Part shown: one piece after another, positions 4,671 to 63,039 of the stretch
Numbering within the stretch: position 1 is the stretch's first letter
Layout of the letters: each line of letters starts with the position of its first letter
NCBI RefSeq assembly: GCF_036634195.1
Contig: NZ_JAZIFY010000001.1
Coordinates: forward strand, 6,086,501 to 6,150,500
DNA from: Streptomyces sp. P9-A4
GTDB lineage: Bacteria > Actinomycetota > Actinomycetes > Streptomycetales > Streptomycetaceae
Length of the DNA: 64,000 bases
Direction of reading: 5' to 3'
Notes under the pieces: generated by a model
The model's database searches: none
What the model was told of the DNA's origin: nothing
Seen by the model: the letters and a program-made list of their open reading frames with translations, nothing else
Position numbers and translations under genes: made by a program

Positions 4671-5621
4671 ATGGATCAGAACGGTCGAGGAGTGACGTCG
4701 CACGTCCCCGGGGAGTTCGTACACCGGGCGGATCCCGCGGACATCATCCCCACGGGGTGGACGCAGCTGAAGGAGAACCGGTTCTCCGTCTCCGCGCGCT
4801 GGCCGGCCTCACATCCCTTCTTCTCTCCGGTGGCGGGCGACCGGCACGACCCCGTACTGGTGGCCGAGACGATACGCCAGACCACCATGCTGATCGCTCA
4901 TGCCGAGTTCGGGGTACCCGTGGACGACCAGTTCGTCATGTGGGGCCTCTCCTACGACACCGATCCGGAGGCGCTCGCCGTCGACGGGCTCTCCTCGGAC
5001 GTCACCGTCGACGTGATCTGCTCCGACCTCAGCAGCCGCGGCGGTCGCCTCCGCGACCTGCGCACCACCGTGGTCCTGACCCGTGACGGCCGCTTCCTCG
5101 GCACCGGCAGGGCCATGGCGCGCTGCACCTCCGCGCCGGCGTACCGGAGGATCAGGGGCGACCGGATGGCCGCGCTCGGCCGGCCCGTCCCGCTGATCAC
5201 GGCGACGGAGCCGGAGCTGGTCGGCCGCGAACACACCAAGGACGTCGTCCTCGGCCCCGGCACCCGCCCCGGCCAGTGGCAGCTGCGGATCAACACCGAG
5301 CACAGCACTCTCTTCCGGCGTCCCAACGACCACGTGCCCGGCATGGTCCTCCTCGAAGCCGCCCGGCAGGCGGCGGCGAGCACGCTCGGCGGCGCCGGAT
5401 ACCTGCCCACCGCGATGGACGTCTCCTTCTCCCGTTACGCGGAACTCGACACCCCCTGCTGGATCGAGACCGAGATCGTGCCCGGCGCCGACCCCGGGAA
5501 GAGCACCGTCCGGGTCGTCGGCCACCAGGACGGCCACCCGGTCTTCCAATGCACGCTCACCTCCCCGTCCCGGGAACTGGCGGTGGCCGGCGCCGGCCTC
5601 GGCAGCCGGCTGGCGGGCTGA
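4671..5621 (+). CDS. AfsA-family butyrolactone synthase (A-factor biosynthesis hotdog protein)
   Basis: A 316-residue protein of AfsA/ScbA size with two hotdog-like halves. The first holds HADPADIIPTGW, ENRFSVSARWPASHPFF and ETIRQTTMLIAHAEFGVP; the second holds NDHVPGMVLLEAARQAA. These are the paired conserved segments of the family. AfsA condenses a beta-ketoacyl chain from ACP with dihydroxyacetone phosphate in the first step of A-factor-type signal synthesis. ATG at 4671 has a GAGGGGG site 5-8 bp before it. Divergent from the receptor and 14 bp ahead of the next gene. Confidence 0.88.
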   Translation: MDQNGRGVTSHVPGEFVHRADPADIIPTGWTQLKENRFSVSARWPASHPFFSPVAGDRHDPVLVAETIRQTTMLIAHAEFGVPVDDQFVMWGLSYDTDPEALAVDGLSSDVTVDVICSDLSSRGGRLRDLRTTVVLTRDGRFLGTGRAMARCTSAPAYRRIRGDRMAALGRPVPLITATEPELVGREHTKDVVLGPGTRPGQWQLRINTEHSTLFRRPNDHVPGMVLLEAARQAAASTLGGAGYLPTAMDVSFSRYAELDTPCWIETEIVPGADPGKSTVRVVGHQDGHPVFQCTLTSPSRELAVAGAGLGSRLAG

Positions 5622-5635
5622 ACCGGATCGGCACG

Positions 5636-6649
5636 ATGGGCCCTCGCATTCTGATCACCGGCGCGACCGGATTCATCGGCGGCCGGGTGGCGGCCACGGC
5701 CGCGGCGCACACGGAGCCCGCGACCGTACGCCTGCTCGCCCGCCGCCCGCTCACCGGCCGGGACCGGCCGACGGGACCGGCCGACCCGGCTCGACCGACG
5801 CGAACGGTCGAACCGGTCGGCACGACGGGAACGCCCCGCCCTCGTACCGAGACCGTCCCGGGCGACCTCCGCGACCCCGAATCGCTCCGTCGTGCCTGCG
5901 AGGGGATCGACGTACTGATCCACTGCGCCTCGGCGATCGGCGCCGACGAGGAGCTGGCCCGTACGGTCAACGACGAGGGCACCCGGGCCCTCGTCGACGC
6001 CGCCGTACGCGCGGGGGTGACCAGGATCGTCGCCCTGAGCACCGCGTCGGTGCACGGCCGCGGCCCCTTCCGGGCCGCCGCCCCCGGCACGCTGCCGCTG
6101 GCCCCCGGCTCCGTGACCAGCCGCACCCGGGCGGCGGGGGAGCGGCACGTCATGGACGCCGGCGGCACCGTCCTGCGACCGCACCTCGTGTACGGCACCG
6201 GCGACCGGCAGCTGATGCCGGGCCTGGTCCGGCTGCTCGCGGCGCTGCCCGGACCGCTCGACGGGGGAGCATCGCTGCACTCGCTGACCGATGTGGACAC
6301 GCTGGCCGGCGTCCTGCTGGGCGCGGCGCTCTCGTCCGCGACCGAGCCGGGTCCCTACTACGTCGACCACCCCGAGCCGGTGCCGGTCGGGGAACTCCTC
6401 GCGGCGGCCGAAGGCCTGCTCACCCACCGGACCGGTACGCCCAGGGGCCCGGCGGTCGACATCGCGGAGGCCCGCGCGCTGCTCGCCGACCTGCCCTTCG
6501 CGCAGCACCACCTGGCCATGCTGGCCACCGACCACTGGTTCGCCGACGGCCGCCCCTGGCGGGAGCTCGGCTGCGACCCGGGGCCGGGCTTCACCGAGGG
6601 GTTCGCCCGCTACCTGCCCTGGTACCACGGACTGCTGACGGACGCCTGA
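5636..6649 (+). CDS. NAD-dependent epimerase/reductase, probable GBL tailoring enzyme
   Basis: A 337-residue extended short-chain dehydrogenase. The Rossmann signature TGATGFIGG is at residues 8-16; a typical nucleotide-sugar-epimerase substrate half follows. The YxxxK catalytic pair is not obvious: after ALSTASVHG the region reads SRTRAAGERHVMDAGG, so it may be atypical. The start is 14 bp after the AfsA-type gene, so the two are translationally linked. Such genes accompany afsA homologues in other GBL loci (for example jadW2-like genes), supporting a role in reducing or modifying the signal; the exact step is inferred. Confidence 0.8.
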   Translation: MGPRILITGATGFIGGRVAATAAAHTEPATVRLLARRPLTGRDRPTGPADPARPTRTVEPVGTTGTPRPRTETVPGDLRDPESLRRACEGIDVLIHCASAIGADEELARTVNDEGTRALVDAAVRAGVTRIVALSTASVHGRGPFRAAAPGTLPLAPGSVTSRTRAAGERHVMDAGGTVLRPHLVYGTGDRQLMPGLVRLLAALPGPLDGGASLHSLTDVDTLAGVLLGAALSSATEPGPYYVDHPEPVPVGELLAAAEGLLTHRTGTPRGPAVDIAEARALLADLPFAQHHLAMLATDHWFADGRPWRELGCDPGPGFTEGFARYLPWYHGLLTDA

Positions 6650-6689
6650 ACGGAGCCGGGCCCGCGCTGCGGTCGCCGCATGCCGGGGC

Positions 6690-7406
6690 TCAGCCGACGG
6701 GTTGGCGGGCGGGGTCACGGGTGCGGTCGTGGGCGGGGGTGCCGCCCATGGTCTCCGTACCGCCCGTGCTGCCCGTACCGCCCACGCCGCCCGTGCTGCC
6801 CGACGGTTCCAGGCCGGTGAGCGCCTCGGGGCTCGCGAGCATCGGCAGGAGGGTCCGCCACAGGCCGGTGACGGTCTCGGCCGAGAGCCATTCGACGTTG
6901 TCCCCGCAGAGGGCCTCAAGGCCGATGGTGGCGGCCACGATCGTACGGGTGAGGTCCTGCTGACGCCCGGCGCCGGTGGCGAGGAGTCCCTCGTCGGCCG
7001 CCTCCGCGAGCCGCTGCAGGACGCAGCCCTGCCATTCCTGGCGCAGGTTCAGGTCGGTGTGGCAGCTGCGGGAGCAGCTGAGGCGGAACCCGGCGCGGAC
7101 GACGACGTCCTCGCGGAGCAGCCGGGCCAGGGCGTGGGAGGTGTCGGCGAGGTTCTGCAGGGCGTTGGACCGCTGCCGGTACACGATCCTGGCGGTCCTG
7201 CGGAGTCTGCTGGAGGCCTCGTGCTCGACGGCGGCGGCGACCGCCGCCTTGTTCTCGAAGTGGAAGTGGAGCGCGCCGGGGCTCACACCCGCTGCCGCGC
7301 TGATCGTGGACAGTCTGGCCGAGGCGTAACCGTGCCGGTCGAACTCGCCGGCCGCCGACCTGATCAGCGCGTCGCGGGTGCGGGTGGCCCGCTCTTGTTT
7401 GGTCAC
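6690..7406 (-). CDS. Pseudo gamma-butyrolactone receptor, TetR family (ScbR2/JadR2 type)
   Basis: A 238-residue TetR protein. The HTH region TRTRDALIRSAAGEFDRHGY and VSPGALHFHFENKAAVAAAV is that of the receptor family, but the ligand domain has CSRSCHTDLNLRQEW, resembling the pseudo-receptors that bind other metabolites. The last 40 residues are a Gly/Thr-rich tail unlike its relatives. GTG at 7406 is chosen (GGAG 6 bp upstream); TTG one codon earlier is possible. It converges on the epimerase gene and has an ARE-like site in its own promoter, so autoregulation or cross-talk with the first receptor is likely. Confidence 0.82.
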   Translation of the reverse strand: MTKQERATRTRDALIRSAAGEFDRHGYASARLSTISAAAGVSPGALHFHFENKAAVAAAVEHEASSRLRRTARIVYRQRSNALQNLADTSHALARLLREDVVVRAGFRLSCSRSCHTDLNLRQEWQGCVLQRLAEAADEGLLATGAGRQQDLTRTIVAATIGLEALCGDNVEWLSAETVTGLWRTLLPMLASPEALTGLEPSGSTGGVGGTGSTGGTETMGGTPAHDRTRDPARQPVG

Positions 7407-8390: not shown

Positions 8391-9941
8391 ATGTCCCACC
8401 GACCCGCCGCCCCTGCTCCGTCCACGACCGCCGCGGCCCGCACACCGCTCACCCGGCGCCGGGTGCTCACCACGACCGCCGCCGCGGCCGGGGTGCTCGC
8501 CCTGCCCGGCTCCGTCGCCTGGGGCGTCCCCACCAGCTTCGAGGCGGAGACCCGCACCGGGCGCCGTGCCCCCGGTGCCGTCGCCGACCCCAGCGTCGTG
8601 ATCCGCTGGAACCAGGCTGCGATGGACGCGATCCTCGGCCGCTACCAGGCCGCGGGGAACCGCTTCGGCCCCGCCACCGTGAACGCCCGCGCCCTCGCGA
8701 TCATCCACAACGCCATCTACGACGCCTGGGCGTGTTACGACCACTGTGCCGTCGGCACCCGCTTCGGCGGCGCCCTGCGCCGGCCCCGCTCCGAGCGCAC
8801 CCTCGACAACAAGAACGAGGCCATCAGCTACGCGGCCCACCTCGCGATGCTCGACCTGTACCCCGAGTACAAGGTCGCCATCGACGGCATGCTGCGCGGC
8901 CTCGGCTACGACCCCGAGCTGACCGCCCCGCGACGCAACAGCCCCGCCTGGATCGGCCGCCGCACCGCGCAGGCCGTCCTCGACTACCGGCACGCCGACG
9001 GCGCCAACCAGCTCGGCACCCCCGCGTACTCCGACACCACCGGCTACCAGGCGCGCAACACCCCGCAGGTCGCCGGGGCCTTCGACCCGTCGACGGTCGC
9101 GGAGCCGGCCCACTGGACGCCGCTGATAGTGAACGGCAAGACGCAGCGCTACCTCACCCCGCAGTTCGCGGTGATGCAGCCCTTCGCGCTGAGCAGCCCC
9201 GACCAGTTCACGATCGCCGCCCCGCCCGCGTATCCCTCGGTCCGGATGACCGCCGCCATCGAGGAACTCCTCGACATCAGCGCCAATCTGACGGACGAGC
9301 AGAAGGCCATCGCCGAGTTCTGGCTCAACGACGACGTGACCCCGCCCGGCGCCCAGCAGATGTGGGGCCGTTACGTCTCCGCCCGCGACGGCTACGGTGT
9401 CGACGAGGACGCCCAGATCTTCTTCGGCCTCAACATGGCCGAGTGCGACGCCGCCATCGGCTCCTGGGCCGTCAAGGCCCAGTACGACTTCGCGCGCCCC
9501 TCCACCCTGATCCCGTACGACCAGCGCGGCCGTCAGATCCGGTCCTGGGGCGGCCCCGGCCAGGGCACCGTCACCATGGACGGCGTCGACTGGCAGGCGT
9601 ACGTGGCCGTTCCGCCGTTCCCGGCCACGGTCTCCGGGCACAGCACCTTCTCCGGCGCCGCCGCCGAGTTCCTGCGCCGCTTCACCGGCTCGGACTCCTT
9701 CGGAGACTCGTACCGCTTCAAGGCGGGCGCCTCCACCGTCGAGCCCGGCCTCACCCCGCGCACCGACGTGGTCCTGCACTGGTCCACCTTCAGCGAGGCC
9801 GCCCAGGAGGCCGGCATCTCCCGGGTCTACGGCGGCATGCACTGGAGCTTCGACAACGAGCCCGGCATCGAGATGGGCCACCGGATCGGCACGGTCGTGT
9901 ACCGGCGGGCCATGAGCTACTTCGGCGGCGCCCACCGCTGA
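8391..9941 (+). CDS. Vanadium-dependent haloperoxidase, Tat-exported
   Basis: A 516-residue protein. A twin-arginine signal TPLTRRRVLTTTAAAAG precedes a hydrophobic run ending near residue 45. All vanadate-binding motifs are present: K362 and R369 in KAQYDFARP, S415-G416-H417 in ATVSGHSTF, and R478 with H484 in SRVYGGMHWSFD. These enzymes oxidise halide with hydrogen peroxide, or act as related acid phosphatases; the complete motif set favours a peroxidase fold of the VCPO superfamily. ATG at 8391 follows AAGGA. Its position beside a GBL locus suggests a secondary-metabolism or competition role, which is inference. Confidence 0.88.
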   Translation: MSHRPAAPAPSTTAAARTPLTRRRVLTTTAAAAGVLALPGSVAWGVPTSFEAETRTGRRAPGAVADPSVVIRWNQAAMDAILGRYQAAGNRFGPATVNARALAIIHNAIYDAWACYDHCAVGTRFGGALRRPRSERTLDNKNEAISYAAHLAMLDLYPEYKVAIDGMLRGLGYDPELTAPRRNSPAWIGRRTAQAVLDYRHADGANQLGTPAYSDTTGYQARNTPQVAGAFDPSTVAEPAHWTPLIVNGKTQRYLTPQFAVMQPFALSSPDQFTIAAPPAYPSVRMTAAIEELLDISANLTDEQKAIAEFWLNDDVTPPGAQQMWGRYVSARDGYGVDEDAQIFFGLNMAECDAAIGSWAVKAQYDFARPSTLIPYDQRGRQIRSWGGPGQGTVTMDGVDWQAYVAVPPFPATVSGHSTFSGAAAEFLRRFTGSDSFGDSYRFKAGASTVEPGLTPRTDVVLHWSTFSEAAQEAGISRVYGGMHWSFDNEPGIEMGHRIGTVVYRRAMSYFGGAHR

Positions 9942-10098: not shown

Positions 10099-10638
10099 GT
10101 GAGCAATCAGACCCAGACCTCAGCGGGAGCGGCGGCCCCACCGGCCCGCAGCCGCTGGGCGGGCGGCGCCCCGCCCTTCCCCGGCGCCCGGCCCGCCGTA
10201 CTCGGCACCCTCGCGACCGTCGTGTCGTTGGTCATCCTGGTGGCGCTCGGCGAGGCCACCGGCCATCTGCTGATGATCGCCCCGCTGGCCGCCACCGCCA
10301 TGATCATCTGCAGCACCCCCGCACTGCCCCCGGCCCAGCCCCGGGGCGTGCTGCTCGGCCAGATCGGCTCCGGCGTCCTCGGTCTCGTGGCCGTCGCCCT
10401 GTTCGGCCACTCCCTCTGGGTGGCCGCCGTCGCCGCCGGCCTCAGCGTCGGCCTGATGCTGCTGCTCCGGGCCGTCCACGCGCCCGCCGCCGCCACGGCG
10501 GTGCTCGCCGTCCTCCAGGACCCCGCGCCCCTGCGCTTCCTTCTCCTGCTCGCCGTCGGCAGCGCCCTGCTGGTCCTCGTGGGCCTGGTCGCCTCCCGCC
10601 TCGGCGTGATCGGCAAGTACCCGACGTACTGGTGGTGA
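10099..10638 (+). CDS. HPP-family membrane protein
   Basis: A 179-residue protein with a 35-residue polar N-terminus and five hydrophobic segments. The family signature HPPAGATA appears here as HAPAAATA (about residues 128-135), and the start of the core, ATGHLLMIAPLAATA, also fits. Some HPP proteins transport nitrite; substrate here is unknown. GTG at 10099 follows AAGGAGAG. It opens a same-strand run of genes (rhodanese, cupin, then the mutase set), about 110 bp before the rhodanese. Confidence 0.75.
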   Translation: MSNQTQTSAGAAAPPARSRWAGGAPPFPGARPAVLGTLATVVSLVILVALGEATGHLLMIAPLAATAMIICSTPALPPAQPRGVLLGQIGSGVLGLVAVALFGHSLWVAAVAAGLSVGLMLLLRAVHAPAAATAVLAVLQDPAPLRFLLLLAVGSALLVLVGLVASRLGVIGKYPTYWW

Positions 10639-10747
10639 CCCCGGCCCGCCGGTGGTGAACCCGCCCGCCCCGGCGTCCCGCCGCATCCCCCGTCCGTCCG
10701 CCCGTACCTCCGCGTACCTCCGCGTACCGACCCTCAACGGAGCTCCC

Positions 10748-11659
10748 GTGAACCGAGACAGACTGCTCGTCAGCTGCGAGCAGATCATGGAACAGCTGCG
10801 GAACCCCGCGGCCGGGGACGAGAACACGGTCCTCGTCGAGATCACCGAAGGCGGCAGCCTGCTGGGCCGGATTCCCGGCTCCGTCCGCCTGGACTGGACC
10901 GGGGACCTCCAGGACCCGGTGCGCCGGGACGTCATCGGCCCCGAGGCCTTCGCCGAACTCCTCGGCAGGCACGGCATATCCGCCGACCACACCGTCGTCT
11001 TCCTCAGCGGCAACAACAACTGGTGGGCCGCCGCCGCGTTCTGGCAGTTCCGTCTGTACGGCCACCGGGAACTGCGGCTGCTCGACGGCGGCCGGCTCCG
11101 CTGGGAGGCGCTCGGCGCCGCCCTCACCCAGGACGTCCCGGAACGCGAGCCCGTCGCGTACCCCGTACCGGCCGTCGACGAGACGGTCCGCGCTCGCCGC
11201 GAGGACATGCTCGACCACATCGGGCGCCACCAACTCCTCGACGTACGCTCCCTGGAGGAGTACCTCGGGCAGAGCAACACCCCGCCCGGCGTTCCCGAGG
11301 ACCTCGGTGTGCGCTGCGGCCACGCCCTCTCCGCCGAGCACATCCCCTGGCACAGCGCCGTCCGCGCCGACGGCACCTTCCGTGACGACGAGGAACTGGC
11401 CGCCGTCTACGCCGACGTGCGCACCGACGCCCCCACGGTCGTCTACTGCCGGGTCGGCTGGCGCTCCGCCCACAGCTGGTTCGTGCTGAGCGAACTCCTC
11501 GGCCTCGCCGACATCCGCAACTACGACGGTGCCTGGCGCGAGTTCGGCTCCCTGATCGGCGCCCCCATCGTCAACGGGCCCAGGCCCTGGGGTCCCGACG
11601 GCATCCCGTCCATCGTCGCCCAGCGCGACGCCGCATCGGAGGTCTCCGCCCGTGCCTGA
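10748..11659 (+). CDS. Two-domain sulfurtransferase (rhodanese)
   Basis: A 303-residue protein with tandem rhodanese domains. The first has VVFLSGNNNWWAAAAFW in place of an active loop and so looks catalytically inert; the second has LLDVRSLEEY and the loop YCRVGWRSAHSW with the catalytic Cys. This is the usual arrangement of thiosulfate or mercaptopyruvate sulfurtransferases. GTG at 10748 has GGAG 5 bp before it; an upstream in-frame extension to 10652 is proline/arginine-rich and unlikely. It overlaps the cupin gene by 8 bp, so the two are coupled and could supply or handle activated sulfur together. Confidence 0.83.
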   Translation: MNRDRLLVSCEQIMEQLRNPAAGDENTVLVEITEGGSLLGRIPGSVRLDWTGDLQDPVRRDVIGPEAFAELLGRHGISADHTVVFLSGNNNWWAAAAFWQFRLYGHRELRLLDGGRLRWEALGAALTQDVPEREPVAYPVPAVDETVRARREDMLDHIGRHQLLDVRSLEEYLGQSNTPPGVPEDLGVRCGHALSAEHIPWHSAVRADGTFRDDEELAAVYADVRTDAPTVVYCRVGWRSAHSWFVLSELLGLADIRNYDGAWREFGSLIGAPIVNGPRPWGPDGIPSIVAQRDAASEVSARA

Positions 11660-12077
11660 CGTCACCGTCTTCCGCAACGTGCTCCGCGACGGCTTCGACC
11701 AGACCGACCTGCCGTGGGTGCCGTGGACCGAACCCGGCCGCGTCGGCGTCGAGTACGTCGTGCTCTGGGGCCCCGACCCGGCCGAGGACGAGGACTCCGC
11801 GTCCCTGCTCCTCCGCTTCCCGCCCGGCGCCCACGGTGACTTCCACGAGCACCTGGGGCACGAGCTGATGCTCGTCCTCGACGGCACCCTCGACCACAGC
11901 GACGGGCGCCGCTTCCACCGCGGTGACCTCGTCGTCGAGGAGCCCGGCACCCGGCACCAGATGTCCAGCGCCGAGGGCTGCACCGTCCTCGCCGTCCGCG
12001 CCCGGCCGGCCGCCTCCCGCACCCCCGAGGCCGGTGAGATCACCACCGGCGTCGGTGCCGGGACCGGCGGCGCCTGA
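11652..12077 (+). CDS. Cupin-domain protein
   Basis: A 141-residue single-domain cupin. Motif 1 is seen in PPGAHGDFHEHLGHELMLVLDG and motif 2 in GDLVVEEPGTRHQ, supplying three His and one Glu as likely metal ligands (H in FHEH, E in HELM, H in TRHQ). Resembles ChrR-like or dioxygenase-type cupins; substrate unknown. GTG at 11652 lies within the 3' end of the rhodanese gene (8-bp overlap), showing translational coupling. Followed by a long spacer before the B12 genes. Confidence 0.78.
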   Translation: MPDVTVFRNVLRDGFDQTDLPWVPWTEPGRVGVEYVVLWGPDPAEDEDSASLLLRFPPGAHGDFHEHLGHELMLVLDGTLDHSDGRRFHRGDLVVEEPGTRHQMSSAEGCTVLAVRARPAASRTPEAGEITTGVGAGTGGA

Positions 12078-12555
12078 CCTCTCAGGAGGACCCGAGGCCA
12101 CCGGACCCCTACGCGGGTCCGGCGGCCTCGGCGCACGCCCACCGCCGCGCTGTCCGGTGGGCCGGGCGGAGCCCCGTACGACACCCGCAGGCACCCCGTA
12201 CGACATCCGGCCCGCGCTGCGTACGACATCCGCCCCGCACCCGTACGACCCTGCCCCGCCTCCGTACACCGACCGCCCTGCCCCACGCACGGCGACCGCC
12301 CGCACCACGTACGGCGACCGTCCGCACCACGCACGTCGCACCACGCACCACGCACGACCCGGCCCCGCACCCCATACGCCGACAGCTCGACCGACCGCCC
12401 GCCCTCGCCCCGTTCGGCGACGGTCCGGCGACGGTCCGGCGTACCCGCTCGGCGGCACCCCCGCACGACCCCTCCCCCCACCCCGACCCGTCCCGTACGG
12501 GCGCTCCCGCACACCCGTCCGTACCCGCCCCGCACCCCTTTCGGAGAGAGACGCC
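12078..12555. promoter_or_regulatory. 478-bp spacer with phased CGTACGAC repeats ahead of the mutase operon
   Basis: No convincing gene is seen. CGTACGAC occurs at 12175, 12197, 12220 and 12242, so spaced 22, 23 and 22 bp, about two turns of DNA. CGTACG recurs at 12308 and a CCCGTACGGG palindrome lies at 12492-12501. A C-rich, CACGCAC-rich stretch separates them. The regular spacing suggests a cooperative regulator array; this is inference. Confidence 0.45.
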
Positions 12556-13029
12556 ATGACCCCGTCCGCACGGCCTCAGCCCCTGCGCAGTCCCGAGCCC
12601 TCCCGTCGGGTCCTGCTCACCACCGGTTCCTCCGACGCCCACACCTGGAACCTCGTCCACCTCCAGCTCTTCCTGGAGGAGCACGGGCACTCCGTGCTCA
12701 ACCTGGGCCCCTGCGTCCCCGAGCAGCTGCTCGTCGACACCGCCCGGATGACCAGCCCCGACCTCGTCGTCCTCTCCTCCGTCAACGGCCACGGGCACCA
12801 GGACGGGCTGCGCGCCGCCCGCGCCCTGCGCGCCGACCGCAAGACCCGCTCCGTGCCCATGGTCATCGGCGGACTCCTCGGCATCTCCCCGGAGGGCGCC
12901 GCCACCCGTACCGCCGAACTCCTCGAAGCCGGATACGACGAGGTGTACGCCGACGGGACCCCGCCCACGGCACTGCTGGGCCGGCTCGCCGGACTCGGCG
13001 GCGCGTGTACCGGGCGGGCCGCGGCTTGA
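12556..13029 (+). CDS. B12-binding subunit of a glutamate-mutase-like enzyme
   Basis: A 157-residue cobalamin-binding protein like methylaspartate (glutamate) mutase small subunit. After a 16-residue basic tail it has VLLTTGSSDAHTWNLVHL, where D-x-H is the lower-ligand motif, then GHSVLNLG and VIGGLLG, which together form the B12 pocket. It would carry adenosylcobalamin to the catalytic subunit encoded next. ATG at 12556 has GGAGAGAG upstream. It overlaps the next gene by 4 bp (TTGA) if that gene starts at 13026. Confidence 0.85.
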   Translation: MTPSARPQPLRSPEPSRRVLLTTGSSDAHTWNLVHLQLFLEEHGHSVLNLGPCVPEQLLVDTARMTSPDLVVLSSVNGHGHQDGLRAARALRADRKTRSVPMVIGGLLGISPEGAATRTAELLEAGYDEVYADGTPPTALLGRLAGLGGACTGRAAA

Positions 13030-16000
13030 CGACCTCCGCCTCGCCCTCGCTCGCCCCCGGCGACCTCGGCGCCTTCGTCCGGGCGTCGGCAGAGGCCGGC
13101 GAACTCGTCGTCCAGCCCAGGATGGGCATGGTCGGGCCCGAGGACATGGCCGCCGGAGTCGCCGCCGTCGCCGCACTGCCGGAACGGACCGTCGCCACCC
13201 TCACCATCGACAGCTACACCCGCGTCGGCGACCACGCCGCCGCCACCTCGGCCCTGCGCACCGGGCAGCCCCTCAACGGGTTCCCGCTGGTCAGCCACGG
13301 CCCGAAGACCACCGCGCGGGTCGCCGCCGCGGCCGGACGCGCCACGCCCGTCCAGGTCCGGCACGGTTCCGCCGACCCCATGGCCATCTTCCGCACCATG
13401 GCCGCCGCCGGGCTCTCCGCCTCCGAGGGCGGCCCCGTCTCGTACTGCCTGCCCTACGGGCGCACCCCGCTCGCCGAATCCGTCGCCGCCTGGCGGGACT
13501 CCGTCCAGTTCCTCGCGGAGGAGAGCCGCGCGCACGGCCGCCGGGCCCATCTCGAATCCTTCGGCGGCTGCCTCCTCGGCCAGCTCTGCCCGCCGTCGCT
13601 GCTCGTCGCCGTCTCGGTCCTGGAGTGCCTGTTCTTCGCGGCCAACGGGGCCACCAGCGTCTCCCTGAGTTACGCCCAGCAGACCCATCCCGCCCAGGAC
13701 ACCGGCGCGCTCACCGCGCTGCGGCTGCTCGCCGACGAGTTCCTGCCGCCGTCCGTGGACCGGCACATCGTGCTCTACACGTACATGGGCGTCTACCCGA
13801 GGACCGTGCCGGGGGCCCGGCTGCTGCTGCGCCGCAGCGCCGAACTGGCCGTACGCGGCGGGGCGCAGCGTCTCATCGTGAAGACCGAGACCGAGGCGCA
13901 CCGCATCCCGACCGTCGCCGAGAACCTGACCGCCCTGCGGATCGCCGCCGACGCCGCCCGCTCCGTGCCCCGGCGCGGCCCGAACCCGGGCAGGACCGCC
14001 GAGGCCGACACGGAGGAGACGCTCGCCGAGGCGCGGGCCATGATCACCGCCGTCCTCGCGCTCTCCGACGATCTGGGCGTCGCCCTCCTCAAGGCCTTCG
14101 ACCGGGGTCTGCTCGACGTGCCGTTCTGCCTGCACCCCGACAACCGGGGCGCCGTCAGGTCCACCGTCGCACCGGACGGGCGCCTGCACTGGACGGACCT
14201 CGGCGCGCTGCCACTGCTCACCACCAGCAGGAGGACCATTCCGATGACCTCACGTCAGCTCTCCGGCATGCTCGGCAGGGTCGCCAGGGAACACGACCTG
14301 GCGGCCGGGACGAACCCGCCGCCCGAGCCGGCGCCCCGCGCGGCCCCGGCGCCGTCGGCGGACCCGCTGCGGATCGCGTTCGTCGGCATGGGCCCGCGCG
14401 GCCTCTCCGTACTGGAACGGCTCGCGGCCCGCTGCGCCGACGGGCCCCCCGGCCGGCCGGTGGAGGTCTTCGCGGTGGATCCGTACGAGGCGGGGGCCGG
14501 ACGGATCTGGCGTACGGACCAGTCGCCCTGGTTCCTGATGAACACCCCGGCCCAGGAGGTCACCATGTTCTCCGGGCCCGCCGACGACGGGCCCCACCGG
14601 CCCGGCGCCGGACCCACGCTCGGTGCCTGGTGGGCGCAGGACGACCCGGCGGGCGCCGACCCCGAGGGGTACGCGCCCCGGGCCGTGTACGGCCGCTACC
14701 TGACGTACGTCATGGGGCGGATCGAGGAGACCCTGCCGCCCTCGCTCACCGTCCACCGCGTCCCCGCCCGGGTGATCTGCGCGGAGCGCGCGGGAGGTTC
14801 GGCGGGTACGGGGACTCCGGGAGGCCCGGACGGCTCCCCGCACCGCCTGAGACTCGACCGCGGTGACGTGCTCACGGTCGACCGGGTGGTCCTCGCCACC
14901 GGCCACCCGATCGTCGAGCCCGACGCCGACCAGCGCGCGTGGACGCGGTTCGCCCGGACGCACAGCACCCCCGCCCGGCCGGTCCGGCACATCGTCGGCG
15001 GCTCCGCGACCGAGATGCCGCTCGCCGCGATCCCGGCGGGCGCGAGCGTGGGCATCCTCGGGATGGGGCTCACCTTCTACGACGTCCTCACCGAGCTGAC
15101 CCTCGGCCGCGGCGGCACCTTCACCGAGGGCTGCGACGGCCTGCTCTACCTGCCCAGCGGCAAGGAGCCCCGCATCCTGGCGGGATCGCGCGGGGGAGTG
15201 CCCCTGCTCACCCGGGGCGCCAACCAGAAGGGACCCGAACACCGTTACCAGGCACGGCTGTTCACCGCCGAAAGGATGGCGGAGCTGCGCGCGGAGGCGG
15301 CGCCGCTCGACTTCGAGTCGGCCGTGCTGCCCTGGCTGCTCGCCGAGGTCAACCTCGTCCTCCTCGCGACCCGCGTCCGCCAGGTCCACGGACCCGGCGC
15401 CGCCGAGGAGTTCACCGAGCGGGCCGCCCAGGCGCTCCGCGACCGGCCCGACCCCCGGATCCTCGAACGGCTCGCCTCCGGGTACCGGATCGACGCCCGC
15501 CCGCTGAGCGGACTCGACGCGCTCGCCCGCCCGTTCGCCGGCCGCCGCTTCGGCTCCCCGGCCGAGTACCACAAGGTGCTCACCGAATGGCTGCGGGCCG
15601 ACCTCTTCGAGGCGCGCCAGGGCAACGCCGACGGCCCCCTGAAGGCCGCCGCCGACGTCCTGCGGGACGTGCGGCAGACGATCCGCACCGTCGTCGACTT
15701 CGGCGGGCTGAACCCCGACTCGCACCGCTGGTTCCTCGCCGAGTTCGGACCCGTCGCGGCGATGGTCTCGACCGGGCCGCCGCAGGAGCGCTCGGAGCAG
15801 TTCCTCGCGCTGCTCGCGGCCGGGGTCCTCGAACCGGTCGGCCCCGGCGCCCGGTTCACGACCGATCCCGTCGAGGGGCGGTTCGCCGTCGAGTCGACAC
15901 AGGTGGAGAACTCCTGGGTGCCGCTGGACGTCGTCGTGGACGCCCGGGTGCCGACTACCGACCTGGTGGCGGACCGGGACCCGCTGATCCGCTGTCTGAT

Positions 16001-16352
16001 GGTGGACGGGGAGATCCGTACGTTCACCAACGCGGCGGAAGGCGCGGGAGAGTTCGCCACCGGAGGGCTCGACTGCACCGACGCGCCGTTCCACCCGGTG
16101 CGGGCCGACGGCTCGGTGGACACCAGCACGCATGTGCTCGGCATTCCCAGCGAGCACACCCGGTGGTTCACCCAGGTGGGCAGCGGGCGGCCGGGCCCCT
16201 GGGGCTCCTTCACCCGCGACGCGGACGCCATCGCGGAGGCGCTGCTCGGTGGTGCGGGGGCGGGCGGTGCGGGATCCGGCGGTACGGCGTACGGTGCCGC
16301 GAGGACCGGGGGTGCGCGGGCCGATGCCGTGCCGGCCGGGGGTGCGCGGTGA
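13026..16352 (+). CDS. Fusion: glutamate-mutase-like catalytic subunit + FAD/NAD(P)-binding protein
   Basis: A single open frame of 1108 residues. Residues about 1-425 resemble methylaspartate/glutamate mutase epsilon chain: VVQPRMGM, LTIDSYTRVGD, GFPLVSHG, VRHGSADP and the substrate loop near SVSLSYAQQTHPAQD. A Pro/Ala linker follows at 428-447. From 450 comes an FAD-NAD(P)-binding protein: IAFVGMGPRGLSVLERLAAR (GxGxxG), GAGRIWRTDQSPWFLMNTPA, VLATGHP and GILGMGLTF. The first half should make a carbon-skeleton rearrangement with the B12 subunit; the second could oxidise or hydroxylate the product. TTG at 13026 overlaps the upstream stop; GTG at 13005 is an alternative. An internal ATG at 14244 has a strong AGGAGG. 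Confidence 0.8.
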   Translation: MTTSASPSLAPGDLGAFVRASAEAGELVVQPRMGMVGPEDMAAGVAAVAALPERTVATLTIDSYTRVGDHAAATSALRTGQPLNGFPLVSHGPKTTARVAAAAGRATPVQVRHGSADPMAIFRTMAAAGLSASEGGPVSYCLPYGRTPLAESVAAWRDSVQFLAEESRAHGRRAHLESFGGCLLGQLCPPSLLVAVSVLECLFFAANGATSVSLSYAQQTHPAQDTGALTALRLLADEFLPPSVDRHIVLYTYMGVYPRTVPGARLLLRRSAELAVRGGAQRLIVKTETEAHRIPTVAENLTALRIAADAARSVPRRGPNPGRTAEADTEETLAEARAMITAVLALSDDLGVALLKAFDRGLLDVPFCLHPDNRGAVRSTVAPDGRLHWTDLGALPLLTTSRRTIPMTSRQLSGMLGRVAREHDLAAGTNPPPEPAPRAAPAPSADPLRIAFVGMGPRGLSVLERLAARCADGPPGRPVEVFAVDPYEAGAGRIWRTDQSPWFLMNTPAQEVTMFSGPADDGPHRPGAGPTLGAWWAQDDPAGADPEGYAPRAVYGRYLTYVMGRIEETLPPSLTVHRVPARVICAERAGGSAGTGTPGGPDGSPHRLRLDRGDVLTVDRVVLATGHPIVEPDADQRAWTRFARTHSTPARPVRHIVGGSATEMPLAAIPAGASVGILGMGLTFYDVLTELTLGRGGTFTEGCDGLLYLPSGKEPRILAGSRGGVPLLTRGANQKGPEHRYQARLFTAERMAELRAEAAPLDFESAVLPWLLAEVNLVLLATRVRQVHGPGAAEEFTERAAQALRDRPDPRILERLASGYRIDARPLSGLDALARPFAGRRFGSPAEYHKVLTEWLRADLFEARQGNADGPLKAAADVLRDVRQTIRTVVDFGGLNPDSHRWFLAEFGPVAAMVSTGPPQERSEQFLALLAAGVLEPVGPGARFTTDPVEGRFAVESTQVENSWVPLDVVVDARVPTTDLVADRDPLIRCLMVDGEIRTFTNAAEGAGEFATGGLDCTDAPFHPVRADGSVDTSTHVLGIPSEHTRWFTQVGSGRPGPWGSFTRDADAIAEALLGGAGAGGAGSGGTAYGAARTGGARADAVPAGGAR

Positions 16353-18070
16353 GTGACGCTCGTACGCCGGGGCCGCGCGACGACGGCGCGCGCGGCACCC
16401 CACGCACCGCCGCACACGAGGAGTACCGGGCCGCCCGGGACCTCCTGCTGCGGCTGCGCGGCGACCGCGAGGCGGCCGACGCCGCCTTCCGGTGGCCGCG
16501 CGCCGAGCACTTCAACTGGGCCCTGGACTGGTTCGACGTCATCGCGGAGGGCAACGACCGGCCTGCGCTCGAACTCCTCGGGCACGCGGGGGAGGACGGT
16601 GCCGTCCCGGTCGTCGACCGGGTCTCCTTCGCCGAACTCGCAGCCCGCTCCGACGCGTTGGCGGTCGCCCTGCGCGATCACGGAGTCGTACGCGGCGACC
16701 GCGTCCTGATCCTCCTCGGCACCCGCACCGAGCTGTGGGAGACCCTGCTCGGCTGCATCAAGCTCGGGGCCGTCGTCGTCCCCGGCTACCAGGACCTCAC
16801 CCGGTCCGAAGCCGCCGACCGGATCACCAGGGGAGCCGTCCGCCATCTGATCGCCGCACCCGAACTCAGCGGCCTGCTTGACGAGTTGCCGGTGCCGGGC
16901 ATCCGGATGGCGGCGGCGCCCGGCACCGGCAGGGCCGGCTGGCTCCCGTACCCCGACACCCGCGCCACCGGCCGTCCCCGCTTCGTCCCGGACGGGCCCA
17001 CCCGCTCCGCCGACCCGTCGTTCTGCTACTTCACCTCCGGGACGACCTCGCTGCCCAAGCTCGTCGAGCACAGCCACGCCGGCTACGGCGTCGGCCACCT
17101 CTCCAGCCTGTACTGGAGCGGCCTGGGCCCCGGCGACCGGCATCTCAACCTCTCCGCGCCCGGCTGGGCCAAGCACTCCTGGTCCAGCTTCTTCGTGCCA
17201 TGGGCGGCGGAGGCCACCATCCTCGCGCCGCCGGACGGCGGGCTCCCGTCGTCCGCCCTGCCACGGGCCCTCGCCGAGCACGGCGTCACCAGCTTCTGCG
17301 CGCCCCCGAGCGCCTGGCGCTCCCTGCTCCCGTACGTGACCGGGGGCGCCGGAGCCCCCCGGCTGCGGGAGGCGACGGCCGCCGGGGAACCCCTGACGGC
17401 CGAGACGGTCGCACGGATCGAGACCGCGTGGGGCGTACGGGTCCGGGACGGCTACGGCCAGACGGAGGCGACCGCGCTCATCGGCCGCGCCCCCGGCCCC
17501 TCCGAGCCGATCGCCCCGCTCGGCCACCCGCTCCCCGGGTACCGGATCGTGCTGCGTGACCCGGAGACCGGGGAGACGGGCGACAGCGGCGAGGTCTGCG
17601 TGGACCTGAAGGAACGCCCGCCCGGCCTCATGCGCGGCTACGCCGGCCTCCCCGAACGCACGGCGGAGGCCTTCGCCGACGGCCTCTACCGCACGGGGGA
17701 CCGGGGCGAGCGGTGCGCGGACGGCTCGATCCGGCTGCTCGGCCGGATGGACGAGGTGTTCAAGTCCCACGGCCACCGGGTCTCCCCCACGGAGATCGAG
17801 GCCGTGCTGCGCACCCACCCGGAGGTGGCCGACGCGGCGGTGGTGCCGCGCCCCGACCCGGACGGCGGCCTCGCCCCGTACGCGGTCGTGGAGCTGCGGC
17901 AGGGGGAGCCGTCCACGGCCGGGCACGGACGCATCGCGGCCGAACTCCTGACGCTCGCCGCCGAACGGCTCGCGCCGGTCTTCGTCCCGCGCGGGGTCGA
18001 GGTGATCGCCCGCCTCCCGCGTACCCGCTCGGGAAAGGTGCGCCGGGGGGAACTCGCCCCGAAGCCCTGA
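16349..18070 (+). CDS. AMP-binding acyl-CoA synthetase
   Basis: A 573-residue adenylate-forming enzyme. Seen in order: HFNWALDWFDVIAEGND near the N-terminus, the P-loop FTSGTTSLPKLVEHSHAGY, the GYGQTEATALIG adenine motif, YRTGDRG, and the C-terminal lysine in LPRTRSGKVRRGE. It activates a carboxylic acid as acyl-AMP and then thioester. GTG at 16349 overlaps the fusion stop (GTGA), so it is coupled to the mutase genes and probably activates their product. It closely resembles the synthetase beginning at 63040, so a duplication from a housekeeping copy is likely. Confidence 0.9.
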   Translation: MSDARTPGPRDDGARGTPRTAAHEEYRAARDLLLRLRGDREAADAAFRWPRAEHFNWALDWFDVIAEGNDRPALELLGHAGEDGAVPVVDRVSFAELAARSDALAVALRDHGVVRGDRVLILLGTRTELWETLLGCIKLGAVVVPGYQDLTRSEAADRITRGAVRHLIAAPELSGLLDELPVPGIRMAAAPGTGRAGWLPYPDTRATGRPRFVPDGPTRSADPSFCYFTSGTTSLPKLVEHSHAGYGVGHLSSLYWSGLGPGDRHLNLSAPGWAKHSWSSFFVPWAAEATILAPPDGGLPSSALPRALAEHGVTSFCAPPSAWRSLLPYVTGGAGAPRLREATAAGEPLTAETVARIETAWGVRVRDGYGQTEATALIGRAPGPSEPIAPLGHPLPGYRIVLRDPETGETGDSGEVCVDLKERPPGLMRGYAGLPERTAEAFADGLYRTGDRGERCADGSIRLLGRMDEVFKSHGHRVSPTEIEAVLRTHPEVADAAVVPRPDPDGGLAPYAVVELRQGEPSTAGHGRIAAELLTLAAERLAPVFVPRGVEVIARLPRTRSGKVRRGELAPKP

Positions 18071-20300: not shown

Positions 20301-20417
20301 GCCAGACGGTACCACTCGGTGCCGTATAGGGGATTCCGATGCGAAAGGCGGAGTGGCCGCCTCCCGTTGCGCCAGACGGAACCGGTCAGTACCGTCTGGA
20401 TGGTACCGATCAGTTCC
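20301..20417. promoter_or_regulatory. Three TetR operator-like sites in the divergent promoter
   Basis: ACCACTCGGTGCC (20311-20323), ACCGGTCAGTACC (20381-20393) and ACCGATCAGTTCC (20405-20417) share ACCrnTCrGTnCC. The middle one lies inside a larger inverted repeat whose arms CCAGACGG and CCGTCTGG bound 20372-20399; CCAGACGGT also precedes the first. They flank both starts and fit cooperative TetR binding. Confidence 0.65.
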
Positions 20418-20444
20418 ATCTTGGTCCGGCTCAAGGAGAGCTCC

Positions 20445-20993
20445 ATGCCCCGCCTGCCCCAACTGACCGTCGAGACCGCCAACGAGGAGCAGCGCGAGCT
20501 GCTCGAAGGCACCCTCAAGCAGCTCGGCAAGCTGCCCAACCTCTACGCCGCCCTCGCCAACGGCCCCTCCGCGCTCCGCGGCTACCTCGCCATGCGCGAG
20601 GCCCTGGTCGGCGGCAGCTTCAGCGCCCGGCAGCGTGAGCAGCTCGCGCTCTACATCGCGCAGCGCAACGACTGCACGTACTGCGTCTCCGCGCACACCC
20701 TGCGCGGCGGCAAGGTCGGCCTGAGCGAGCAGGAACTGCTCGACACCCGCCGCGGCACCGACGCGGGCGACCCGCACATGGACCAGGTGCTCCGCTTCGC
20801 CGGCGCCGTCATGGCCACCGGAGGCCGTGTCACCGACGAGTCCCTCACCGACGCCCGCGCCGCCGGCGTGACCGACGCCGAGATCGCGGAGATCGTCGGC
20901 CACGTCGCGCTGAACGTGCTGTCGAACTTCTTCAATCACGTTGCGCAGCCGGACTTGGACTTTCCGTTGGTCCCGGCCCACCTCGCCGAGTAG
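20445..20993 (+). CDS. Carboxymuconolactone decarboxylase / AhpD-like peroxidase
   Basis: A 182-residue AhpD-fold protein. The redox centre CTYCVSAHT gives C77, C80 and H84 (CxxC-xxx-H), the peroxidase-type active site, preceded by REQLALYIAQRND. The C-terminal helix VLSNFFNHVAQPDLDFP is the family's usual end. It probably reduces organic peroxides or related electrophiles. AAGGAG precedes ATG by 9 bp. Divergent from its TetR regulator and followed by a terminator hairpin. Confidence 0.88.
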   Translation: MPRLPQLTVETANEEQRELLEGTLKQLGKLPNLYAALANGPSALRGYLAMREALVGGSFSARQREQLALYIAQRNDCTYCVSAHTLRGGKVGLSEQELLDTRRGTDAGDPHMDQVLRFAGAVMATGGRVTDESLTDARAAGVTDAEIAEIVGHVALNVLSNFFNHVAQPDLDFPLVPAHLAE

Positions 20994-21144: not shown

Positions 21145-22158
21145 GTGGACATCGACGCAAGAACCCTTCGGACCTTCCGTGAGGTGACCCTGACCGGGTC
21201 GTTCACCCAGGCGGCGCGACGCCTCGGGTACTCGCAGTCCAGCGTCACGGCACAGATGCGTGCCCTGGAGAGGCAGGTGGGCGAACCCGTCTTCGAGCGG
21301 CTTCCCAACGGTGTCCGGCTCACCCACTCCGGAACCGTCCTGCGTGACTACGCACGCCAGATCCTCACCCTCGTCAGCGAGATGGAGACCGCCCTGCGCC
21401 GGCCCGCGGCCAACCCGCCCAGGCTGACCGTCGGGATCGTCCCCGCCCTGGCGTACGGGCAGCAGCTCGCCCGGGTCACCCAACTCGGGCGGCGGCTGCT
21501 CTCCGGCGTCCAGCTCGCCCTGCGCGTGATGGGGACCGCCGAGGTCCACGACGCCTTCCGGTCCGGAGCGATCGACGGGGCTCTTGTCCTCACCGTGGTC
21601 GACGCCGACGACCCGGCCGCCCTCTTAGCCGACCAGCTGCACACCGAACGCCCCGACGAACTCACCGAAGTACGCCTCCAGGAAGTCGAGTTCGTACCCG
21701 TCACGAGCGTCGGACAACGACGCGGCAACCTCGGCCGCCAGGTCGTCATCGCCGACCCCGACTGTCCCTCGCAGCGCTGGCTGCCCGAGTTCCTCCGCCT
21801 GCGCTGCGACAGCCCTCCCGAGATCCACGAGCTCGGCTCCATGGCCGGCGTGCGCGCCGCCACCCAGTCCGGCCTGGGCTGCGCCATGCTCCCCATGGCC
21901 CTCGCCGCCTCCCACCAGGAGGCGGGGGGACTGCGCCCGCTGCCGGGCGTGCCCCGGATGCGCTGGAACGCCTCCCTCGTCCACGGCCGCCCCGACACCC
22001 GGCCCGCGCTCGACTGGCAGAACCTGACGGAGACCCTCCGCCAGGCCACCGCCCTCTCCTGCGTGGTCCGCCCCGACGAGCCCGGCCCCGCGAGCGCCGC
22101 CGACGTCCTCGGAGGAGAGGCCGCCGCCCTCGGCCCGGACCCGAGCATCGCCTCGTAA
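21145..22158 (+). CDS. LysR-family regulator with a TTA codon
   Basis: A 337-residue LysR protein. The winged HTH LRTFREVTLTGSFTQAARRLGYSQSSVTAQMRALE spans the first 50 residues; the effector domain starts near PRLTVGIVP and the C-terminal 35 residues are an unrelated low-complexity tail. GTG at 21145 follows GGGGGGAA. Codon 161 is TTA (21625-21627), the rare leucine codon read only by the bldA tRNA, so full-length protein should depend on development. The likely target is not obvious; the next gene is convergent. Confidence 0.88.
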   Translation: MDIDARTLRTFREVTLTGSFTQAARRLGYSQSSVTAQMRALERQVGEPVFERLPNGVRLTHSGTVLRDYARQILTLVSEMETALRRPAANPPRLTVGIVPALAYGQQLARVTQLGRRLLSGVQLALRVMGTAEVHDAFRSGAIDGALVLTVVDADDPAALLADQLHTERPDELTEVRLQEVEFVPVTSVGQRRGNLGRQVVIADPDCPSQRWLPEFLRLRCDSPPEIHELGSMAGVRAATQSGLGCAMLPMALAASHQEAGGLRPLPGVPRMRWNASLVHGRPDTRPALDWQNLTETLRQATALSCVVRPDEPGPASAADVLGGEAAALGPDPSIAS

Positions 22159-62948: not shown

Positions 62949-63039
62949 GGAACCACTCCTTCACCCCCGAACGGGGGTAGTGAGACCTGGGTCACTGATT
63001 ACACGATGTCCGGGACCGGTCCCGCAATGAGGAGGACGC

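Follow-up and report, generated by a model that had tools for sequence, protein, structure and literature searches.

We analysed a stretch of 64,000 nucleotides (nt) from Streptomyces sp. P9-A4 (contig NZ_JAZIFY010000001.1, positions 6,086,501 to 6,150,500; the whole stretch is called the window) and found that the gene at 13026-16352 (+) is one uninterrupted open frame for a protein of 1108 amino acids (aa), which consists of a glutamate-mutase epsilon chain, a Pro/Ala linker and a whole flavoprotein, in that order. Its sequence suggests that it is probably a bifunctional enzyme that turns glutamate into 3-methylaspartate and the latter into an N-oxidised product, which a neighbouring ligase would activate. 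The gene belongs to a recurrent core cassette of a cupin, a B12 chain, the mutase::oxygenase fusion and an acyl-coenzyme A (CoA)-ligase-like gene, laid out in the window as follows.

11652..12077 (+), cupin of 141 aa, ChrR-like Cupin_7 (PF12973, E 1e-14), with an HxHxxxE...H metal site
12556..13029 (+), B12-binding small mutase chain of 157 aa (PF02310), start taken from codon usage
13026..14300 (+), mutase catalytic (epsilon) half, residues 1-425, from PF06368 and active-site positions
14301..14366 (+), Pro/Ala linker, residues 426-447, its length differing among homologues
14367..16352 (+), predicted flavin N-oxygenase half (CreE/FzmM-like), residues 448-1078 plus a low-complexity tail, from 8cp2
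16349..18070 (+), AMP-forming acyl-CoA-ligase-like enzyme (LIG; PF00501 and PF13193)

Structure and recurrence of the fusion gene

The TTG start at 13026 gives a 4-nt overlap with the stop of the B12-chain gene (an alternative start is the GTG at 13005), and the ligase gene overlaps the fusion stop by 4 nt in turn. An earlier interpretation of this DNA, made from its letters alone (the sequence-only reading), had described an uninterrupted frame joining the two halves through a Pro/Ala linker, with the B12 chain and an acyl-CoA synthetase in overlapping genes on either side; the open frame, the matches to both domains and the two overlaps bear this out.

Homologues were searched among 8000 scored candidates, which gave 223 hits, 120 of them listed. 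Both domains were present in all 120 listed hits, so that a stop masked by a sequencing error, the hazard raised in the sequence-only reading, is not what joins the two halves. The closest of the hits listed was another Streptomyces record, 98% identical over 100% of the query; the listed fusions were mostly from Streptomyces, with others in Kitasatospora, Saccharothrix, Frankia, Actinoplanes, Microbispora, Amycolatopsis and further genera. Within the window's clade, purifying selection acts on both halves: seven pairwise comparisons put the ratio of nonsynonymous to synonymous substitution (dN/dS) at 0.16-0.35 in the mutase half and 0.19-0.43 in the oxygenase half, against 0.19-0.74 in the short linker. 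We ruled out chance or a sequencing artefact because of this selection and the 120 two-domain homologues.

We also surveyed the best 80 of 537 loci in GTDB genomes, a choice that favours close relatives. The two halves were fused in 36 loci (including L045, scored as fused though its frame breaks near the end) and lay as neighbouring separate genes in 15, and 29 loci had the mutase alone, the oxygenase being absent within the available stretch. Thus the fusion is no one-off but widespread in public data (120 listed hits, 36 of the best 80 loci), and the unfused neighbours that the sequence-only reading proposed to look for do occur. In one protein (P0113), the B12 chain precedes the mutase and then the oxygenase in a single chain, a triple fusion, so the association of mutase with oxygenase takes three forms: fusion, triple fusion and separate genes. 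Three mutases (L060, L064 and L065) are 58-64% identical to the fused half and stand without an oxygenase match in the available stretch.

The 36 fused loci, the 15 split loci and the window make up the cassette set of 52 loci, in which genes were called by codon usage. The upstream 4-nt overlap between B12 chain and mutase was found in 35 of the 52; 12 more had an overlap of 25 nt, where the start-choosing script may have taken a farther start, and five had gaps. Downstream, the fusion or oxygenase gene overlapped the ligase gene by 4 nt in 38 of 48 loci. The mutase and oxygenase were present in 52/52, the B12-chain family in 52/52 and the ligase in 48/52, the other four (L035, L041, L046 and L049) stopping at contig edges. 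The cupin was called in 45 loci and found by tblastn in two more (L045 and L046); in five loci it forms the C-terminal part of the ligase chain. In Pseudomonas frederiksbergensis (L044), the cassette is compact: the B12 chain is joined by the fusion, a ligase::cupin gene and a member of the family that is MFS in L033, and the genes bordering this block have no family members in the other loci. Among 298 genomes searched within that genus, the full-length fusion was found only in this genome, which had itself supplied the query.

Active sites of the two halves

Residues 17-399 match PF06368 (Met_asp_mut_E, E 7e-83). In addition to published residues, we take Y181, K326 and E330 to be active-site positions of glutamate mutase. 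The published ones are the arginine claw of R66, R100 and R149, together with E171 and Y177 (excerpt of PMC10947579). In the fusion alignment, R66, R100, R149, E171, Y177, Y181, K326 and E330 correspond to R32, R66, R112, E134, Y140, Y144, K286 and E290, and all eight were invariant in 22 of 22 fusions aligned. The partner B12-binding chain of a glutamate mutase is present at 12556-13029, where the PF02310 match lies on a long frame, 11923-13029. The classical B12-binding motif is DxHxxG; that of the small chain reads DxHxxN. The pair resembles GlmS/GlmE of Clostridium cochlearium in being a two-part adenosylcobalamin mutase that keeps every active-site residue tested, but differs from it in this motif, in scores below the TIGR01503 and TIGR01501 cut-offs and in a catalytic chain that bears an N-oxygenase. 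A second B12-chain/mutase pair occurs in the same genome (L111:8488-10274, contig C2). Its neighbours encode a 2411-aa protein, part of which is ligase-like, and proteins resembling a class II tRNA synthetase and a glutamate synthase; gene calling in the 19 kb fetched around the pair gave no oxygenase.

The C-terminal half matches PF13454 (NAD_binding_9, residues 451-627, E 2e-33), a label that, to judge by its homology, undersells it. PDB 8cp2/8cp5 (E 5.1e-93), the sole significant PDB relative, covers residues 448-1078 in an end-to-end alignment; the other match at E 10 was a chance one (E 2.4). Entry 8cp2 is an NADPH- and O2-dependent enzyme from Streptomyces sp. V2, an L-aspartate N-hydroxylase that shares 54% identity with FzmM and oxidises aspartate stepwise to nitrosuccinate (excerpt of PMC10404684). 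With CreE, FzmM and 8CP2 the oxygenase half shares full-length homology at about 38% identity, FAD and NADPH domains, a helical substrate domain, an arginine cluster and the catalytic Trp51 and Asn62. N-hydroxylation, which the sequence-only reading had offered as one possible chemistry of the flavoprotein, is thus well supported, the only significant solved relative being an aspartate N-hydroxylase. Unlike CreE, FzmM and 8CP2, the oxygenase half is fused or adjacent to a mutase, has (in the window) positions 413 and 571 replaced, falls in a separate clade and has no CreD found in its cassette loci.

Residues were counted in three sets of rows: 35 fused (33 of the 36 fused loci, to which L110 and the window were added), 15 split and 13 aspartate-type (12 genomic sequences and 8cp2). 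R13, R266, R409, R412 and R416 were conserved in 35/35 fused rows, W51 and N62 each in 34/35, and R577 in 32 of the 33 with data. This conservation of catalytic residues rules out an inert extension, the other outcome that the sequence-only reading had feared. Asn413 forms the back of the aspartate entry chamber and Val571 is a tunnel residue; a V571F mutant of the aspartate enzyme is active with a Michaelis constant (KM) of ~4 mM versus 0.27 mM (excerpt of PMC10404684). Position 413 was Asn in 13/13 aspartate-type rows, and in the fused rows Gln (15), Gly (14), Ala (3), Asp (2) or Ser (1); position 571 was Val, Ala or Leu in 13/13 aspartate-type rows and Phe in 33/33 fused and 15/15 split rows. 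The window itself has Gln at 413 and Phe at 571, so the combination of an entry-chamber Asn413 with a small residue at 571 that marks an L-aspartate N-hydroxylase is found neither there nor in the fused rows. The outer aspartate site was mostly lost in the fused rows (R593 in 3/33, R597 in 0/33). In our reading, the chemistry of the oxygenase half is conserved and its substrate gate changed, and from its sequence this half can be named a nitrosuccinate-synthase-type N-oxygenase in which that gate is predicted to be altered.

In a maximum-likelihood tree of 69 flavoproteins, the 35 fused and 15 split sequences together with L105, L106 and L107 (the E-coupled clade) were split from the aspartate side at 100/100; L044, L107 and L051 had long or basal branches, and their placement is unsure. 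L105 and L106 were nested inside the fused part of the tree, suggesting that fission or loss has probably happened. L108 and L109 have their own adjacency of B12 chain, mutase and oxygenase, with mutases 36-38% identical that keep all eight active-site residues, and oxygenases with Val571 and Asp at 413. Their flavoproteins lie on the aspartate side, suggesting either a second independent pairing with a mutase or an old pairing lost in the aspartate type.

Among 150 Streptomyces genomes, 15 had oxygenase matches of at least 45% identity; in 12 of these a ligase match adjoined the oxygenase on the same strand within ~0.5 kb, and in G013, G018 and G446 no ligase match lay next to it. In G446 (L140:3145-10474), the oxygenase, two ATP-grasp genes, an MFS gene, the B12 chain and the mutase stand in one row, a mutase-oxygenase pairing without an acyl-CoA ligase. 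The L105 oxygenase cluster contains HMGL-like, aconitase/LeuC-like, isochorismatase-like and aminotransferase genes (tested against Pfam). L106 has genes with similar starts and also encodes a mutase pair, amino-acid kinase and semialdehyde dehydrogenase; a cupin gene adjoins its oxygenase gene. At L107:3212-10869 (G014), the oxygenase stands with a cassette-type ligase and no mutase in the fetched stretch, and its neighbours are a pyridoxal-phosphate enzyme, an asparagine synthase, an 84-aa gene and a marginal ATP-grasp match.

Predicted pathway and its alternatives

The route from glutamate through 3-methylaspartate and an N-oxidised product to ligation is well supported as logic, and its chemistry is predicted. 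The N-terminal half, together with the B12 chain encoded upstream, would convert L-glutamate to (2S,3S)-3-methylaspartate, and the C-terminal half, as a class B flavin N-oxygenase, would oxidise this product at its amino group, at the expense of NADPH and O2. Because the glutamate mutase equilibrium favours glutamate, an irreversible oxidation coupled to the isomerisation would drive it forward. The sequence-only reading had a radical product handed from one half to the other; the mutase would instead release a closed-shell amino acid. The most likely end point of the oxidation would be 2-methyl-3-nitrosuccinate. An excerpt of PMC13411527 describes how CreE without CreD leads to nitropropanoate through spontaneous decarboxylation; by analogy, 2-methyl-3-nitrosuccinate made from 3-methylaspartate would, without a nitrosuccinate lyase, lose CO2 to give 2-methyl-3-nitropropanoate (3-nitroisobutyrate). 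This acid would be activated by the neighbouring ligase, and the cupin may act between or after these steps.

We rejected membership of the aspartate-nitrosuccinate (ANS) pathway because no CreD was found beside the cassette oxygenase. CreD had no match in the 80 loci, nor among the window's predicted genes in 1-32000, and no protein of the same genome exceeded the 650-bit nitrosuccinate lyase cut-off (best, 49 bits). A CreD-like gene was found in the fetched stretch of 6 of 12 aspartate-type oxygenases (L093-L104); the L094 protein scored 739.8 bits and shares 59-69% identity with the other five.

The best PDB matches of the ligase were the 4-hydroxybutyrate-CoA ligase 8biq (E 3e-75) and the AMP-binding protein 3etc (E 6e-73), and its best NCBIfam model was the acyl-CoA synthetase MbcS (229 bits, far under the 850-bit cut-off). 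This profile fits a short branched acid as the predicted substrate and proves nothing. LIG as an enzyme type confined to this pathway is contradicted by matches at E 1e-95 in 134 of 150 Streptomyces genomes, mostly at ~48-51% identity, suggesting that LIG is the pathway's version of a widespread acyl-CoA ligase. The 12 such paralogues that were fetched formed one group in a quick tree, apart from the cassette copies. One such paralogue, 49% identical, begins at 63004 and runs to the end of the window. VinH/VinI and VinN, which we take to be the mutase and ligase of macrolactam starter pathways, are alike in placing an actinobacterial glutamate mutase near an AMP-forming ligase. Here, by contrast, an N-oxygenase follows the mutase, and the ligase is nearer to 8biq and 3etc than to the beta-aminoacyl-acyl-carrier-protein synthetase chains listed (E 4e-24).

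The cupin residues H65, H67, E71, H102, R30 and R55 were invariant in 25 aligned members picked from 48 hits. Its predicted fold had a predicted local distance difference test score of 88, and many cupins matched it about equally well; we made no use of the fold to assign a function, because the Mn hydroxynitrile lyase, acetylacetone dioxygenase, DddK, SbzM and other matches were tied and generic.

The sequence-only reading had suggested a new building-block pathway. The recurrent cassette fits this proposal, with a product that is predicted. In its full form, a self-contained nitro building-block pathway in which the fused mutase/N-oxygenase takes glutamate to 2-methyl-3-nitropropanoate, activated by the ligase for an exported metabolite, it is a tentative proposal. 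In the open-licence literature searched, we found no description of such a fusion or of the predicted products as metabolites, and the sequence-only reading likewise knew of no described fusion of the catalytic chain to a flavoenzyme. This seems to be an undescribed small-molecule pathway, apparently common to many actinobacteria.

Several observations weigh against the bifunctional route. The mutase half scored 159.4 bits against the TIGR01503 glutamate mutase equivalog (cut-off 390), and the small chain 44.5 bits against TIGR01501 (cut-off 135.8). It is also chemically awkward for a radical enzyme that depends on B12 to be joined to a domain that uses O2. The split rows retain Asn413 in 11/15, so that only position 571 separates the whole E-coupled clade, and R276, an aspartate contact, was found in 13/13 aspartate-type, 23/35 fused and 1/15 split rows; this pattern suggests that the substrate gate varies among members of the clade. 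No mutase gene lies in the fetched stretch near the E-coupled-clade oxygenases L105 and L107, which possibly act on another substrate. Of 29 cassette genomes, three hold a CreD over the cut-off outside the cassette, and eight more have a lyase at 321-563 bits outside the cassette stretches. Finally, an HPP-family gene in 29 of the 52 loci may mean that nitrite is released rather than the nitro group retained.

This last point leads to a nitrite donor route, which we regard as somewhat unlikely. Here, 2-methyl-3-nitrosuccinate, or a decarboxylated thioester made by the ligase, would lose nitrite spontaneously or by the action of the cupin, leaving mesaconate or methacrylyl-CoA, and the HPP protein would move the nitrite. 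Nitrite transport has been reported for the HPP family (excerpt of PMC4137279, citing Maeda 2014), which favours a nitrite by-product in loci with the gene; the beta-eliminating lyase DddK is among the cupin fold matches, and relatives of the flavoenzyme supply nitrite pathways (excerpt of PMC10404684). However, the CreD searches of the genome and the 80 loci gave no such lyase, the cupin fold matches are generic and tied, and HPP is absent from the available stretch of 23 of the 52 loci, the compact Pseudomonas cassette being one of these 23 and some of the stretches being limited by contig ends.

A route to an N-N bond is unlikely. The flavin half would stop at N-hydroxy-3-methylaspartate, the ligase would join it to an amino acid as an ester, which the cupin would rearrange into a hydrazine, as in PyrN, which has methionyl-tRNA synthetase (MetRS)-like and cupin domains. 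Shared with the PyrN/Spb40-type hydrazine synthetases is the combination, downstream of an N-hydroxylase, of an adenylating enzyme with a cupin that has a metal site, the two at times making up a single chain. Five loci encode ligase and cupin as one protein, PyrN itself fuses an activating domain to a cupin, and the HxHxxxE...H layout is the same as that of PyrN (excerpt of PMC8664883). But the activating enzyme is an acyl-CoA-ligase homologue (PF00501/PF13193) and not MetRS-like, and the metal motif, all that the cupin shares with the PyrN-type N-N-forming zinc cupin, is common to many cupins. Moreover, a search of PDB sequences with the cupin profile at E 0.01 did not list 5UQP, nor was 5UQP (RHS1) among the best 50 cupin fold matches listed, and the oxygenase-cupin pair at L106 lacks a ligase in the fetched stretch.

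It is quite unlikely that the oxygenase half acts on a substrate other than the mutase product, such as aspartate, with the fusion merely equalising expression. Fusion alone is no proof of channelling, and the mutase-less clade members L105 and L107 and the mostly retained Asn413 of the split group agree with this explanation. Against it stand the tunnel residues, and in fused rows the entry-chamber residues, which are unlike those of aspartate enzymes; the V571F mutation raised the KM of an aspartate enzyme to ~4 mM (excerpt of PMC10404684), and fusion, adjacency and the second pairing in L108 and L109 all tie the oxygenase to the mutase. That the fusion is an artefact of sequencing or annotation, or its second half inert, is a negligible prospect, refuted by recurrence in 120 listed homologues, purifying selection and conserved active sites.

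If the bifunctional route holds, two pathway types that are usually apart, that of glutamate mutase and that of nitro or N-oxygenated building blocks, would be united in one chain. It would name a testable precursor for an orphan cassette of several actinobacterial families, and would provide a natural enzyme whose substrate path departs from that of the aspartate enzymes at positions that mutagenesis has already explored.

Accessory genes of the cassette

The following accessory genes lie around the core in the window; the HPP gene is the one counted above.

8391..9941 (+), vanadium-haloperoxidase-like protein (PF21167, PF22778, PF01569), in 20/52 loci
10099..10638 (+), HPP-family membrane protein, possible nitrite transporter (PF04982, E 4e-26, longer frame P0126)
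10652..11659 (+), rhodanese (PF00581), in 18/52 loci
20400..20993 (+), carboxymuconolactone-decarboxylase/AhpD-like protein (CMD; PF02627, longer frame P0127), in 19/52 loci
21145..22158 (+), LysR regulator (PF00126 and PF03466), in 34/52 loci

No Rfam RNA, such as a cobalamin riboswitch, reached the gathering threshold in 1-30000 of the window. Just upstream of the cassette, at 4692-7406, are an AfsA-like gene (PF03756), an NAD-dependent epimerase and a TetR repressor, which by their families are a predicted gamma-butyrolactone-type regulatory set.

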